From Thermanaerosceptrum fracticalcis (GTDB taxonomy: Bacteria; Bacillota; Peptococcia; DRI-13): a stretch of DNA of 64,000 nucleotides. The notes under the pieces were generated by a model. The model was not told the origin of the DNA, did no database searches, and worked only from the letters and a program-made list of their open reading frames with translations. Position 1 is the first letter of the stretch; every line of letters begins with the position of its first letter. This document shows positions 15,542 through 58,141 of the stretch, one piece after another. Location of the stretch: the NCBI RefSeq assembly GCF_000746025.2, contig NZ_CP045798.1:1-64000 (forward strand). Reading direction: 5' to 3'. Made by a program: the position numbers and the translations under genes.

Positions 15542-15590
15542 TTGATAGTTGCTAGTAACTAATAACTAGGAACTAGTAACTAATTGGGAG
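15542..15590 (+). repeat. AACTAGT-type short repeats, copy 1
   Basis: Degenerate units such as TAGTTGCTAGTAACTAATAAC and AACTAGGAACTAGTAACTAA fill the spacer between the transglycosylase gene and the next gene. Most are built on the palindrome ACTAGT. Similar repeats recur at about 16637-16700 and 16789-16818. Confidence 0.75.
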
Positions 15591-15598
15591 GAAGTTGG

Positions 15599-16636
15599 AT
15601 GAGGAATATAATCAAAACCCTTGCTCAGGTTGATGCTATCCAGGTGGAAGAAGGGCGCCGGATGTTTTCCGCCCAGCATGAGGAGATTGTGTCTGGGGCA
15701 ACTACGGATATCTATTTTGTGAAAACCCAGGAGATTTTAGCTCAGAGAGGCCTAGAAAATACTGTTGTTACTGCGGAAATCTTTGCCCGGCGGGAAGGTG
15801 TGTTGGCTGGTATCACAGAAACCCTGGCCCTTTTGCAGGATTGCCCCGTAGAAATTTGGGCTCTCCAGGAGGGACAAGCCTTTGCCGCTAAGGAAGTAGT
15901 GATGCGTCTTAAAGGGAGATACTGCGATTTTGGTATTTATGAGACAGCCATTTTAGGAATACTGGCCAGTTCCAGTGGGTGGGCCACAGCGGCCAGGGAG
16001 ATAAAGAAAGCGGCAGGAGAAAAAGGAGTCCTTTGTTTTGGGGCCAGGCATGTACACCCTGCTGTAGCCCCGGTGATGGAAAAAGCAGCCGTTATCGGAG
16101 GTGCCGATGGGGCCAGCTGTATCTTAGGTGCTAAACTGGCAGGCAAAGAACCTTCCGGTACTGTACCCCATGCTATTTTTCTGATCATGGGAGATACGGT
16201 GGAGGTAGCCAGGGCTTATCATGAGATTATGCCTTCCACAGCTCCCCGGACCGTACTGGTTGATACCTTTAAAGATGAAGCCGAAGAAGCTCTGCGCGTG
16301 GCTGAGGCTTTAGGACCGGCTTTAGAGGGAATCAGGCTGGACACTCCCAGTGAGCGGGGAGGGGTGACTCCCGGTTTGGTAAAAGAAGTACGGGCACGCC
16401 TGGACCAGGCCGGGTTCCAGCATGTCAAAATATTTGTTTCCGGAGGACTAGATCCGGAACGCATTATCCTCTTAAAAGAAGCGGGAGCCGATGCCTTTGG
16501 GGTAGGCAGTTATATCTCCGGAGCCCCGGCCATTGACATGACCATGGACTTAAAAGAAATAGAAGGGAAACCCGTAGCCAAACGAGGCCGTATCCCAGGT
16601 ATCACACCTACTGAGCGGCTGGTAAAGATGAAGTAG
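15599..16636 (+). CDS. Nicotinate phosphoribosyltransferase-like protein
   Basis: The 345-residue product starts at ATG 15599 (GGGAGGAAG upstream; a start at 15584 lies in the repeats). It has the type II phosphoribosyltransferase barrel segments: FGARHVHPAVAPVMEKAA, GADGASCILGA, the phosphate loop region VSGGLDPERI and GVGSYISGAPA. This clade makes nicotinate mononucleotide from nicotinate in NAD salvage. It is shorter than PncB of E. coli but normal for the Firmicutes/archaeal clade. The exact substrate is inferred from family. It seems to stand alone, between two repeat clusters. Confidence 0.8.
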   Translation: MRNIIKTLAQVDAIQVEEGRRMFSAQHEEIVSGATTDIYFVKTQEILAQRGLENTVVTAEIFARREGVLAGITETLALLQDCPVEIWALQEGQAFAAKEVVMRLKGRYCDFGIYETAILGILASSSGWATAAREIKKAAGEKGVLCFGARHVHPAVAPVMEKAAVIGGADGASCILGAKLAGKEPSGTVPHAIFLIMGDTVEVARAYHEIMPSTAPRTVLVDTFKDEAEEALRVAEALGPALEGIRLDTPSERGGVTPGLVKEVRARLDQAGFQHVKIFVSGGLDPERIILLKEAGADAFGVGSYISGAPAIDMTMDLKEIEGKPVAKRGRIPGITPTERLVKMK

Positions 16637-16818
16637 TTGCACTAGTTATTAGTTACTAGTTATTAGTTACTAGTAACTAGTTATTAGTTATTAGTAATAA
16701 ATAAATGTCAGATTACGTTATTCTGAAGGCAATATAAATAGCCTGTTATGGGTCAAACCATAACAGGCTGTTTCTGTAAATATTCCACTAGTAACTAAGA
16801 ACTAGTAACTAGTAACTT
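16637..16818. repeat. AACTAGT-type short repeats, copies 2 and 3
   Basis: Two blocks (about 16637-16700 and 16789-16818) consist almost only of TTAGTTACTAG and TAACTAG units in either strand. The second block runs into the stop codon of the leftward small gene. The bidirectional terminator at 16740-16775 lies between them. Confidence 0.75.
16740..16775. terminator. Bidirectional terminator
   Basis: A perfect 12-bp stem (AGCCTGTTATGG / CCATAACAGGCT) with a 6-base loop lies between the phosphoribosyltransferase gene and the leftward small gene. The T-rich flank is stronger on the + strand. Confidence 0.75.
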
Positions 16819-16972
16819 ACCTAATCTTAACCCATGTTTGGAAGTGGCGCTGCTGCTGCTCTTGATAGTAGTAGATAGCACACTCTTCCTCACAGAGCTG
16901 GATTGTTCTATCATTATAGGCTAATTCAATAGCATCGCCGTTAATTAGACTTCCACAGTAAGTACACATCAT
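16817..16972 (-). CDS. Cys-rich zinc-ribbon-like mini-protein (51 aa) behind a lysine riboswitch
   Basis: The start ATG (16972) follows AAAGGAGGAG at the right distance, so translation is well supported. The protein has a CTYC pair near the N-terminus and a second pair (CEEEC, about residues 27-31), the arrangement of a small zinc-binding ribbon, then a tail rich in Tyr and Gln (IYYYQEQQQRHF). No membrane segment is seen. A full L-box riboswitch and a hairpin lie upstream on the same strand with no other gene between, so this is the regulated gene. I do not recognise the family. A role in lysine sensing or transport control is only inferred. Confidence 0.75.
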   Translation of the reverse strand: MMCTYCGSLINGDAIELAYNDRTIQLCEEECAIYYYQEQQQRHFQTWVKIR

Positions 16973-17006
16973 AATACTCCTCCTTTGACATGGTAGAGAT
17001 AAGAAT

Positions 17007-17027
17007 AGCTTCAGGAGACCTGAAGCT
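17007..17027 (-). terminator. Hairpin between lysine riboswitch and small gene (expression platform)
   Basis: A perfect 9-bp stem (AGCTTCAGG / CCTGAAGCT) with a 3-base loop lies 30 bases below the aptamer. The downstream U-tract is weak (ATTCTTATCT), so it could act as a terminator or only as a spacer hairpin. Confidence 0.55.
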
Positions 17028-17054
17028 TACTAATGCTACATGCCCCTCCTTCCC

Positions 17055-17245
17055 TCCGTGAGATAGCGCTCCACCAGGAACCGGGATCTATCCCTGGTGA
17101 CAGTCCTGCACCTGTTCGATGCAGTCCCAGCCTCGGTAAGATGGGTGCTTACCGGACTTCGGCGATATCTCCTTTCCCCTTTTATCATAGCTTCCCAGCT
17201 CAAAAAGGTTACTCTTAGATACCGCGCCTCTACCTCACCTCGGTA
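17055..17245 (-). promoter_or_regulatory. Lysine riboswitch (L box)
   Basis: The minus strand contains all core L-box blocks in order: GAGGTAGAGGCGCGG, AAGAGTAACC, GGGGAAAGGAGATATCGCCGAAG (split in the core), a GCATCGAACAGGTGCA stem with GACTGTCACC, and GGAGCGCTATCTCAC. The P1 stem GTGAGGTAG / CTATCTCAC closes it with one G-U pair. These match the lysC leader of Bacillus subtilis in order and spacing. Only the 51-residue Cys-rich gene lies downstream. Confidence 0.92.
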
Positions 17246-17325
17246 AAGAGATGAGGTAATATTATGAAGTTATGTATACGATATCACATGTTACGGTGAA
17301 AATCAAGATTTTAATATTGGAAAAA

Positions 17326-36796: not shown

Positions 36797-36925
36797 TACG
36801 CCCAGCATGGGCGTCATCTCTAGGATGAAAGTCCCGAACGGGGGCTGGCGAGTGCCTACCGTTAGCTGACGGCAAGGGTGTCCACCGCGAGGTGGAATCT
36901 GAAAGAAGCCTGAGGCAAAGGTGTG
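36797..36925 (+). mobile_element. Group II intron 5' remnant
   Basis: GTACGCCCAGCATGGGCGTC, then GGATGAAAGTCCCGAAC, TTAGCTGACGGCAAGGGTG and GTGGAATCTGAAAGAAGCC, is the typical 5' domain I sequence of bacterial group II introns (consensus start GTGCGCCCAGCATGGGCG). The intron is cut after about 130 bases, and no maturase follows. It lies directly behind a terminator, a preferred target of some introns. Region 36732-37055 holds only this, a terminator and short repeats. Confidence 0.75.
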
Positions 36926-36929
36926 AAAA

Positions 36930-36974
36930 TTCACAATAAATGTGCCTGAAGATTTCACAAAAAAAGTACCTGAA
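36930..36974 (+). repeat. Two 21-bp direct repeats, transposon-end-like
   Basis: TTCACAATAAATGTGCCTGA (36930) and TTCACAAAAAAAGTACCTGA (36954) are direct repeats with a 24-bp period, and a weaker third copy is near 37040. This looks like the repeated transposase sites at the end of an IS21-like element that has been lost. Confidence 0.5.
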
Positions 36975-39455: not shown

Positions 39456-41057
39456 ATAGAAAATGATAACTCCAAAAATATTTTTTTAAAAAAAAGATCC
39501 TAATTTTCGACAAAAAAGGCTTGACTTTTTCGGAAAGCCCCCATAATCGCTTTGGATGGTATTTTCTACCATCACTCTAGCGATATGGGTGATGCTGATG
39601 AAGAAACTGTGTAAACCAACTTTCGAAAAAAAGGATCACGGTCAAGGTGCCGGAATCCCGGTACTCAAGACAATTTGGGATTTATTTGACCTGTCTCTGC
39701 TGTTTTCCCAGTCCGGAATACGCAAACACTCCGGAATTCCAGCGTGGCTCCTGGCTTTTGCCTACATCTGCGGCCTTGTTAATCATTCAAGTTCTGCAAA
39801 TCAAAATGCTAAGTTTTCAACGGAAGCTCCATTTTTACAACAACTGCTTTCCGGGCAAATCATCTCTCAAAGTGCCTTCAGCCGGTTTCTCTCCAAGCCC
39901 TTTCAGTGGCTCCGGTTCTCTTTGGGCAGATTTGCCAGGTTACAAGAAAATACGGATAGCAGGCTGACCGACGGCGATATCATTGCCTTAGACGATACCA
40001 AAATTGAGCATCCTCACGGTAAAAAAATCCCCTTTCTCTGTTGGCTCTTTGACAGTTCGGATAAGCGCCATGTATGGTGTATTAATCTTGTGTCGACCCT
40101 GGCTATCTTAAAGAATGGTCTTGAATATCCCATGTTATGGCGCTTTTGGGTTAAAACCGGTCAGGAGAATGAAAAACAAAGCAAGCTTGATCTTGCTAAA
40201 CAGATGCTCGCAGAGGCTCGTCAGCTGAACAAGGCCAGACTATGGGTAGCCATGGATCGCTGGTTTTTGTGTAAAAAGTTCCTGAACTGGCTGATGGGTC
40301 AAAATTTTGACTGGGTTACCAAAGCCAAACGTAACACAGCGCTATTCAGGAAAATCTACGACCCGGTACTAGGAAAGGAACGCTACATTAAACTTAATCC
40401 GAAGCAACTGCTGCGAGAAGTTTATTCCCAGCTTCGGGTCCTTGGCAAAGAATCGGTTCTCAGTATTCCGGACATTTACATCAAAATGCCCTATGAGACC
40501 TTAACACGCAAGGGAAAACCCATTACTAGACAACGTTTTTTACCCATAGCTGCCATTGCAGCCACTTATGAGAAGCAGGCTGTCGAGGGCAGCATAGTTC
40601 TTCCGGAGGAAGAATGCCCAGCAACCTTCAAGGATGCGTATCTCCTGATAAGCAATCGCGTAGATACGCCGGAAGAAGCTGCAACTGCCTATGTTAAACG
40701 ATGGAGAATAGAAGTTTTTTACCGCACCGCTAAACAGAATCTTGGTTTAACATCTTGCTATGCTCAGTCTGAAACAGCTCATTTCGCACATGTGGAGCTC
40801 TTGTTTACAGCGAAGACCCTTCTTTGTTATGCCTCTTGGGAGTGCAATAAAGAAGGCGCCGAACAAGCCCCCTCCCTCTGCGAAGTGATAAGGTACTTCT
40901 TCAACGCCGGTTGTCGGATCCGCTGTTGCGAGCAGTTGATCCAAGTCTATTTTGACACGGCAACCCAGCGTTTTTCAAGGCTTATTGATAAATTCTGGCC
41001 ACATTCTTTGGAACTTAGGTTATGGGATTGGGAAAATTATCCTGAAACTGCATAACT
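39456..41057 (+). mobile_element. IS4-type insertion element
   Basis: The element splits the C39-like gene after the codons for YAVGG. It carries one transposase gene which ends within 3 bases of the right junction. Terminal inverted repeats and a target duplication are not clear by eye, so the right end may be trimmed; the left 140 bases hold GGCTTGACTTTTTCGGAAAGCC as a hairpin. Confidence 0.75.
39598..41055 (+). CDS. IS4/IS701-type transposase
   Basis: The product has about 485 residues. The start is uncertain (ATG 39598 chosen; the frame is open from 39556). DDE residues of the IS4 group appear in IALDDTKIEHPHGKK, in VAMDRWFLCKKF, and in the YREK-type motif KRWRIEVFYRTAKQNLGL. The gene appears intact. 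No second copy is in the window. Confidence 0.88.
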   Translation: MKKLCKPTFEKKDHGQGAGIPVLKTIWDLFDLSLLFSQSGIRKHSGIPAWLLAFAYICGLVNHSSSANQNAKFSTEAPFLQQLLSGQIISQSAFSRFLSKPFQWLRFSLGRFARLQENTDSRLTDGDIIALDDTKIEHPHGKKIPFLCWLFDSSDKRHVWCINLVSTLAILKNGLEYPMLWRFWVKTGQENEKQSKLDLAKQMLAEARQLNKARLWVAMDRWFLCKKFLNWLMGQNFDWVTKAKRNTALFRKIYDPVLGKERYIKLNPKQLLREVYSQLRVLGKESVLSIPDIYIKMPYETLTRKGKPITRQRFLPIAAIAATYEKQAVEGSIVLPEEECPATFKDAYLLISNRVDTPEEAATAYVKRWRIEVFYRTAKQNLGLTSCYAQSETAHFAHVELLFTAKTLLCYASWECNKEGAEQAPSLCEVIRYFFNAGCRIRCCEQLIQVYFDTATQRFSRLIDKFWPHSLELRLWDWENYPETA

Positions 41058-56358: not shown

Positions 56359-56549
56359 CGCTTAAATCTCCTTTCTAAATTATATGCGTATTTATGCTGA
56401 AATATTATACGACTATATTTTCGCATATTTATATGTATTCATCAACTCTATTGCTACCACATGTAATAATTGTTTTAAAGCTAAAATATAATTTAATACT
56501 CAAGGCAGGAATTTTTTCTTTGAAGGAGAATAAATAAATGCTGTAAACT

Positions 56550-56706
56550 AAATACATGCTGATTCGGTGTAGGGAACCGGGTGCGAGTCCTGGGCGATCC
56601 CGTCACTGTAACCAGGGAGCGACCTTCAATGAGAGCCACTGGGCGATATGCCGGGGAAGGCTGAAGAGAGCTGTGATCTGGAAGCCAGGAAACCTGCCAG
56701 TCAGTT
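56550..56706 (+). promoter_or_regulatory. Cobalamin riboswitch
   Basis: Conserved blocks are in order: GGTGTAGGGAACCGGGTGCGA with GTCCTGGGC, GATCCCGTCACTGTAACC, the GAGAGCCACTG segment, and GAAGCCAGGAAACCTGCC (the B12 box). It lies upstream of cblT, separated by a terminator hairpin. Confidence 0.95.
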
Positions 56707-56755
56707 GGATTTCCCTTTCGCGGAAAAGGGGTAATTAAACTTGGGATGATGGTAA

Positions 56756-56797
56756 AGTCCCCAGTCAATGATGTATTGACTGGGGACTATTATTTTT
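56756..56797 (+). terminator. Riboswitch-controlled terminator
   Basis: A perfect 14-bp stem (AGTCCCCAGTCAAT / ATTGACTGGGGACT) with a 5-base loop, then ATTATTTTTG. Expected to form when cobalamin is bound, which stops cblT-cblS transcription. Confidence 0.88.
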
Positions 56798-56865
56798 GTC
56801 TCTCGAAGTTATGCACTTACGCAAGCCTGACCCCAAGAACCAAAAAAATTCAAGGAGGTATTATT

Positions 56866-57396
56866 ATGTCACAAAAAGTTATGGAAGGAAGTGCAGGAAA
56901 AATTCATGTGCGCCAGGTGGTGCGTGTAGGGCTTTTGGTGGCTTTGAGCACCGTAGGGGCCCACATTAAAATCCCCAGTATTACAGGGACACCGGCTCTG
57001 GACTCGCTGCCGGGTTATTTTGCCGCGGCCGCTCTGGGCTGGCGGGAGGGAGCTTTGGTAGCAGCATTGGGTCATTTGCTTACCGCCTTAACGGCAGGCT
57101 TTCCTTTGTCCCTGCCTATTCACCTCTTAATTGCCGCCGAAATGGGTATCTGTGCTCTCGTCTTCGGTTACCTTTTCAAGAAAACCAATCCTGTTATTGC
57201 CATGGGTGCGGCTATTATCCTAAACGGGGTAGGGGCTCCTGCCTCTCTCATTCCTATAATGGGCCCCGGGATCTTTTATGGCCTTGTTACGCCTTTGCTC
57301 GTTGCCTCTGCCCTCAACATTATTGCTGCTGCTCTTTTAGCCAAAGCACCAGGCATCAACAGAATATTCAAAGGTGAGGAACATGCCCATTATTAA
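56866..57396 (+). CDS. cblT: ECF transporter S component, alpha-ribazole transporter CblT
   Basis: The 176-residue protein starts at ATG 56866 after AAGGAGGTATT. Five or six membrane helices and Gly/Ala-rich helix contacts (FAAAALGWREGALVAALGHLL, ILNGVGAPASLIPIMGPG) fit the S-component fold. With the adjacent cblS gene and the cobalamin riboswitch the context matches the CblTS pathway of Firmicutes, in which CblT imports alpha-ribazole, the lower-ligand nucleoside of cobalamin. It overlaps cblS by 14 bases. Confidence 0.85.
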   Translation: MSQKVMEGSAGKIHVRQVVRVGLLVALSTVGAHIKIPSITGTPALDSLPGYFAAAALGWREGALVAALGHLLTALTAGFPLSLPIHLLIAAEMGICALVFGYLFKKTNPVIAMGAAIILNGVGAPASLIPIMGPGIFYGLVTPLLVASALNIIAAALLAKAPGINRIFKGEEHAHY

Positions 57397-58141
57397 AAGA
57401 ATCCGGGACTTGAGCCTATTAGATTTGCCCGGGGAGATGGTACTGGTGACAGCCTGTGATTCCCTGGGAGCAATCGGTGCTAAGGAGCTGGATGTGGTCA
57501 AAGTATCAAGTTATTTTGTAGGACGCGCTGCTGCCAGGGTTCCCCTCATGGAGGTCCTGGCGGCCGGAGCGGAACCTGTAGCTTTTTATAATACCCTGGC
57601 CGTGGAAATGGTTCCTTATGGGGAAGAAATTATCGAGGGCATGGCCCGGGAACTGGTGCTGGCAGGCATAGACCCAGCCCTGGTTTTAAACGGCAGTACC
57701 GAGGAAAATGTCCCTACACGGCAAACAGGGGTAGGTGTAGTGGCCGTGGGGTTGGTCCCTCAAAAGGACCTTTTATTGGGCAAAGCGCAGAAAGAAGATT
57801 TAGTAATCGCCTTTGGCCTGCCCAAAGTGGGGCCGGAGGTAGCAGCCGGCGGCCCTGATGACCCGGAAGTAGCCAAACCCTCTCTTGTTAAGAACTTGTT
57901 AAAGTGGGGATATGTCCACGAACTGCTGCCTGTGGGGTCCAAAGGTATTCTTTATGAATGCCGGGAGTTGGCGGGAACGGCTGGCCTTGTTTTTCAACTA
58001 GATCATAAGGTGACTCTCAATGTCAAAAAATCAGCGGGACCTGCTACCTGTCTTTTAGCCGCTGTACCTTCGGAAACCCTGAGCCTTCTTAAGAACGTAA
58101 AGTGGCTTGTGCCGTGGCAGGTTGTGGGCAGACTGGTCTAG
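57383..58141 (+). CDS. cblS: AIR-synthase-like alpha-ribazole kinase CblS
   Basis: The 252-residue protein starts at ATG 57383 with AGGTGAGG upstream inside cblT. It has the AIR-synthase/PurM fold start (MVLVTACDSLGAIGAKELD, ATP-binding region) and a truncated C-terminal domain as in the CblS family. CblS phosphorylates alpha-ribazole to alpha-ribazole phosphate for cobalamin assembly. The gene pair cblT-cblS and the B12 riboswitch support the call. No other B12 gene is in the window. Confidence 0.82.
   Translation: MPIIKRIRDLSLLDLPGEMVLVTACDSLGAIGAKELDVVKVSSYFVGRAAARVPLMEVLAAGAEPVAFYNTLAVEMVPYGEEIIEGMARELVLAGIDPALVLNGSTEENVPTRQTGVGVVAVGLVPQKDLLLGKAQKEDLVIAFGLPKVGPEVAAGGPDDPEVAKPSLVKNLLKWGYVHELLPVGSKGILYECRELAGTAGLVFQLDHKVTLNVKKSAGPATCLLAAVPSETLSLLKNVKWLVPWQVVGRLV

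Follow-up and report, generated by a model that had tools for sequence, protein, structure and literature searches.

A lysine riboswitch ahead of a conserved 51-residue, treble-clef-like protein in Thermanaerosceptrum fracticalcis and its relatives

The minus strand of the window, i.e., the whole analysed stretch of 64,000 nucleotides at the start of the contig NZ_CP045798.1 of T. fracticalcis, carries a complete lysine riboswitch (L-box), P1 included, which covers positions 1-182 of the Rfam Lysine model (RF00168) with the full aptamer fold and the conserved core, at 130.1 bits (E 1.4e-34) against a gathering score of 30, and which is one of the five L-boxes in the 3.8 Mb genome. At a distance of 83 nt it is followed by a 51-aa ORF (the mini-gene), whose product contains two pairs of cysteines, C3-x2-C6 and C27-x3-C31 (Table 1). 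The first-pass annotation, made from the letters alone, had described a full L-box with P1 and a downstream hairpin, followed only by a tiny gene with two Cys pairs and an excellent ribosome site, and all of these elements were recovered, the site being AAAGGAGGAG and the hairpin between the aptamer and the ORF being formed by GCTTCAGG-TCT-CCTGAAGC, with an imperfect U tract that is interrupted in the window genome (AUUCUUAUCU). Since the mini-gene is followed by another hairpin and then by a convergent gene (15584-16636, +; nicotinate phosphoribosyltransferase-like, so named from its sequence alone), it is the sole possible target of the L-box; T-run hairpins come after the mini-gene in the other genomes, and the unit therefore looks monocistronic. 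Arrays of 7-base units (ACTAGTT/TAGTTAT) flank the hairpin after the mini-gene at 16641-16697 and 16787-16817, the second of them extending to the stop codon of the mini-gene.

Table 1. Features of the L-box/mini-gene unit, with positions in the window.
Feature	Position	Strand	Basis or remark
5' leader strand ATTACCTCATCTCTTTACCG	17245..17277	-	upstream of the aptamer; holds the 5' half of P0
P0 hairpin, UACCUCAUCUC / GAGGUGAGGUA	5' half within 17245..17277	-	competes with P1
Lysine riboswitch aptamer (L-box)	17056..17240	-	RF00168, 130.1 bits, full length
Purine-rich tract GGAGGGAAGGAGGGG, candidate antiterminator strand	17036..17058	-	directly 3' of P1; in all six leaders
Terminator-like hairpin AAGCTTCAGGTCTCCTGAAGCT, U tract interrupted	17008..17029	-	-12.8 kcal/mol
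Ribosome-binding site	16977..16986	-	sequence; close 5' of the ATG
Mini-gene, 51 aa (50 from the second ATG), treble-clef-like C-x2-C...C-x3-C protein	16817..16972	-	five homologues, dN/dS < 1, AlphaFold
Hairpin after the mini-gene, ACAGCCTGTTATGG...CCATAACAGGCT	about 16733..16775	-	sequence; probable transcript end

Homologues of the mini-gene were looked for by sequence and profile searches in 46 genomes of the class, and five were found, with 35-63% identity, so that the gene is present in exactly 6 of the 46 genomes and in four families: f1 (that of the window), f3, f4 (two species) and f9 (two genera). Fourteen residues are invariant in the six proteins, namely C3, Y5, C6, G7, C27, E30, C31, I33, Y35, Q39, Q40, F44, T46 and W47, and the best-conserved region besides the cysteines is the C-terminal helix with the TW motif. 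In every pair of mini-genes dS exceeds dN (dN/dS < 1), as in the closest pair (dS 0.14, dN 0.04) and the pair from f9 (dS 1.48, dN 0.17); purifying selection acts on the coding sequence. Its patchy distribution (6/46) indicates that the mini-gene is dispensable. Beyond the class, the sampling of 398 genomes of the phylum gave only weak partial matches and no convincing relative of the mini-protein, and none of those matches that were checked adjoins an L-box. A mobile or phage origin was rejected, as neither viral contigs, plasmids and phages nor the defence models yielded a match.

In all six genomes an L-box lies 83-93 nt upstream of the mini-gene, which answers to the search for homologues and for L-boxes ahead of them that had been proposed along with the original observation. 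The pairing is more than chance because it recurs in every class genome that holds the gene. The 46 genomes contain 79 L-boxes; for the others, the first ORFs downstream were inspected, and these are mostly dapB, dapA, asd, lysA or transporter genes; the mini-gene stands outside these usual classes of target, as the first-pass annotation had supposed. In a tree of 76 class aptamers, the six L-boxes of the mini-genes form one branch, apart from the remaining L-boxes that these genomes carry, with an SH-aLRT of 91, which is under the mark of 95, and the clustering of the mini-gene label on the tree was matched by none of 500 shuffles. The shared and separate branch suggests that the riboswitch and the mini-gene were most likely passed down as a unit. 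This unit occurs in two different neighbourhoods, and the mini-gene stands alone, with no known partner gene: in the order seen in the window it lies between a phosphoribosyltransferase gene and an SRAP-domain gene, the latter adjoining it or a few genes off, and in f9 it is found at another location. The relatives lacking the mini-gene (e.g., G008, G010 and G014) have kept the phosphoribosyltransferase gene, next to which stands a response regulator or rubrerythrin gene, and their empty syntenic sites contain neither an L-box nor a lysine gene. An unconserved gene, with a lysine gene in its place in relatives, had been named as the finding that would speak against a true target; what the genomes hold is a conserved gene and sites without a lysine gene. 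Control in cis of the conserved mini-protein gene by the lysine riboswitch thus appears well supported by comparative genomics, and the recurrence of L-box and gene together in all six carriers marks the mini-protein as what would be a real and previously undescribed member of the lysine response.

The six leaders share one order, i.e., the P0 strand, the aptamer, the purine-rich tract, a hairpin with a U-rich stretch, an SD-like site and the ORF. The 5' strand of P0 is either UACCUCAUCUC or UACCUCACUCU, and its partner is the 5' half of P1, with which it forms 11 bp at -16 to -18 kcal/mol in each of the six; 3' of P1, the expression platform consists of a 7-10 bp hairpin that ends in a U-rich tail and occupies an equivalent position in each leader. 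P0 is a general feature of the L-boxes of the class and not peculiar to the mini-gene: with at least 8 of 9 pairs required at a fixed position, it was found in 60 of 75 L-boxes, with several compensated pair types. The covarying element, located in the window at 17245-17272 (-), has UACCUCAYYC as its 5' strand, which pairs with the 5' half of P1, and is not covered by the Rfam model; it seems to be a partner in switching for L-boxes throughout the class. A dedicated upstream anti-SD, considered from the complementarity of ATTACCTC and GAGGTAAT, was ruled out and the strand was read as P0, because this 5' strand recurs ahead of the majority of the class L-boxes, where it pairs with P1. Specific antiterminator helices were also rejected, the proposed pairings, tested against shuffles, not exceeding in most leaders what base composition alone would give.

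Several observations on other elements were made in the course of the same survey. In one of the carriers (G009), a TPP riboswitch (L007, 2091-2193, +) lies on the opposite strand near the L-box of the mini-gene, and thiamine synthesis-like genes adjoin the unit, between it and the SRAP-domain gene. Two L-boxes, L035 (G007) and L039 (G008), are located ~240-280 nt upstream of a gene for a NuoE/complex I 24 kDa-like subunit and may be left over after the loss of a transporter, because their aptamers group with that of L055, which lies ahead of an NhaC-like transporter gene. The L-boxes L047 and L049 (G000:C1:2184182-2184365 and 2181450-2181633), close relatives separated by 2.7 kb, lie one before dapA and the other about 735 nt before a gene for a BMP-family lipoprotein-like transporter, and are probably a recent duplication. 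In the window itself, the span 56547-58141 (+) contains a cobalamin riboswitch and, after it, two ORFs, for an ECF S-component-like membrane protein (56746-57396) and for an AIR-synthase-like protein (57374-58141), a pair which we take to resemble CblT/CblS of alpha-ribazole salvage. A match to group II intron D1-D4 (36881-36974, +; 39.9 bits) is probably a remnant; no reverse transcriptase is apparent among the listed ORFs of at least 120 aa from 35.7 to 41 kb, and a transposase-like ORF occupies 39556-41055.

No curated model of Pfam or NCBIfam reaches its cut-off with the mini-protein. Its weak profile matches fall mainly among small metal fingers, of the treble-clef or another kind (TRASH, L24e, FCS, DUF2116, aMBF1), those to PF08394 and PF01246 having a best E of 0.011-0.013, below the gathering cut-off, and a PDB profile search gave archaeal eL24 at an E of 0.0015. 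The AlphaFold model (mean pLDDT 81, pTM 0.59, the five models spanning 55 to 81) contains two strands (15-19 and 22-26) and a helix (29-43), i.e., the strand-strand-helix order of the four-Cys treble-clef fingers, and Foldseek aligned it with eL24 chains at a probability of 0.95-0.99 and a TM of ~0.6, the best-fitting ones with an rmsd of 1.4-1.9, and, lower in the ranking, with the TRASH structure 2das, all at E > 0.01. The four-Cys zinc knuckle, beta hairpin and helix which define a treble clef are thus present in the AlphaFold model and its Foldseek matches, with E > 0.01 for the latter. These predictions point to a stand-alone finger of the eL24/TRASH type. Of the zinc-ribbon mini-protein proposed at first, the Cys-rich mini-protein has stood and the zinc ribbon has not, a treble clef fitting better by the profile and fold matches. 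The invariant C3, C6, C27 and C31, together with the predicted fold, make metal binding likely. A role as a metal chaperone or zinc store of the TRASH kind, serving a metalloenzyme of the lysine pathway or metal sparing rather than regulation, would agree with the four invariant cysteines, with the weak matches to Arc_trans_TRASH, zf_CopZ and L24e and with the presence of 2das among the fold matches; however, every Pfam match stays under its curated cut-off, a single structural metal site fits a finger better than a carrier, and the strongest conservation outside the cysteines, in the C-terminal helix and the TW motif, adds no metal ligands, so that we hold this role to be unlikely.

The direction of the switch is likely OFF with lysine, which is the simplest reading of the mutual exclusion of P0 and P1 and of the terminator-like hairpin. 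When lysine is scarce, UACCUCAUCUC would pair with the 5' half of P1 and leave the aptamer unclosed, the RNA polymerase would pass the terminator, and the 51-aa protein would be made; when lysine is bound, P1 would close, the terminator hairpin would form and the mini-gene would be silent. As P0 and P1 are mutually exclusive, lysine binding should favour P1. In B. subtilis and E. coli, the lysine riboswitches that have been characterised work in the OFF direction (PMC11477304). The interrupted U tract of the window genome makes a translational component of its leader possible. Slightly less probable again than the metal chaperone is an ON switch, by which the mini-protein would be made in plentiful lysine, e.g., to inhibit the uptake or synthesis of lysine: the sequence gives the direction without certainty and the antiterminator is poorly defined, but P0 and P1 share the 5' strand of P1 and the terminator-like hairpin stands after P1, as an OFF switch expects, and the mini-protein is Lys-poor. 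Lysine makes up 9 of the 320 residues of the six mini-proteins against about 7% in the proteins of the window, although a low content is common by chance, 14% of the 51-aa stretches of the window proteins holding at most one Lys; the Lys-poor, acidic composition may, weakly, suit synthesis under lysine shortage.

A third role, that of an RNA- or ribosome-binding factor, whose eL24-like finger would adjust translation in lysine shortage, is fainter still: archaeal and eukaryotic eL24 are indeed the best structural and sequence matches, yet each of the six is an acidic protein, of net charge -2.4 to -7.4, unlike most RNA-binding fingers. Hardly credible is a deletion remnant, in which an L-box that formerly regulated a lysine gene would now be left in front of a short ORF without meaning. 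L-boxes do normally front synthesis and transport genes (as in the class inspection and in PMC5584792), and the complex I-like subunit gene behind L035 and L039 in two relatives offers a possible precedent of re-fronting; yet purifying selection maintains the ORF in six genomes from four families, the L-box is always upstream of it, the syntenic site of the relatives without it has neither lysine gene nor L-box, and the L-boxes of the six mini-genes make up a branch of their own. The Cys-rich mini-protein as the true target of the L-box, as first proposed, is strongly upheld by the L-box at all six homologues, the selection and the empty sites.

The reading which we consider rather probable is a monocistronic lysine-OFF riboswitch unit, the 51-aa product of which would act in lysine shortage as a treble-clef finger that binds a partner protein. 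Such a finger would hold one metal ion, probably zinc, by its four invariant cysteines, and by binding another protein it would tune the uptake, synthesis or use of lysine under shortage; binding to a partner is suggested by the acidic charge and by a conserved aromatic/Gln face (Y35, QQ, F44, TW). With moderate confidence we prefer this protein-binding effector role, as a hypothesis, to that of a metal chaperone or a ribosome factor, and the lysine-responsive regulator of the first-pass annotation is plausible. A link to lysine fermentation via lysine 5,6-aminomutase was rejected, the enzyme being encoded in one of the 46 genomes and that one lacking the mini-gene, and a link to sporulation is uninformative, because Spo0A is found in all six carriers but also in most other genomes.

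Among the known systems, the leader agrees with the lysine riboswitches of RF00168 in its complete aptamer with all helices and in the terminator-like hairpin downstream, adding the 5' P0 hairpin, which many class L-boxes share; it differs in its target, as the usual, though non-defining, gene of lysine synthesis or transport is replaced, here and in the five other genomes, by the ORF of a 51-aa treble-clef-like protein only. The amino-group carrier LysW (TIGR01206) is likewise of ~50 aa, Cys-rich, of the metal-binding type and tied to lysine, and its C-terminus is the carrier tail EDWGE; the mini-protein lacks this tail and spaces its cysteines as C-x2-C / C-x3-C. Membership in LysW was rejected, as TIGR01206 has no match in the mini-protein family and lysW is absent from all 46 class genomes, the control being positive in Thermus and others. 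With the TRASH/Arc_trans_TRASH and eL24 fingers (PF08394, PF01246) the mini-protein shares C-x2-C...C-x3-C, the strand-strand-helix order and the weak profile and fold matches, but it is free-standing, bacterial and 51 aa long, with a C-terminal YQEQQQ-x-F-x-TW of its own and scores below the cut-offs. MntS and SgrT of E. coli are small effectors whose release depends on a leader or regulator that responds to a nutrient; the mini-protein resembles them as a tiny protein made in response to one nutrient signal, and differs in that the signal is lysine, via a riboswitch, and that its role is inferred only. We know of no sequence relation to either of them. In a survey of lysine riboswitches, the targets were those of biosynthesis and transport, single hypothetical ones being taken as putative transporters (PMC5584792), and a soluble 51-aa finger belongs to neither of these target classes. 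A literature search found no case of a small zinc protein behind a lysine riboswitch, an earlier mention of which in the founding L-box paper is possible.

The mini-protein may, as we tentatively suggest, be the founder of a family of lysine-starvation effectors, in which one finger, for which no control but its dedicated riboswitch is known, would reset lysine uptake or metabolism via a partner protein. Because the ligand is known, the function of a family absent from Pfam and NCBIfam is narrowed, and with leader, ligand and target all known an assay is ready. A conserved soluble 51-aa metal finger as the dedicated target of a riboswitch would indicate that lysine homeostasis includes a step not yet recognised.
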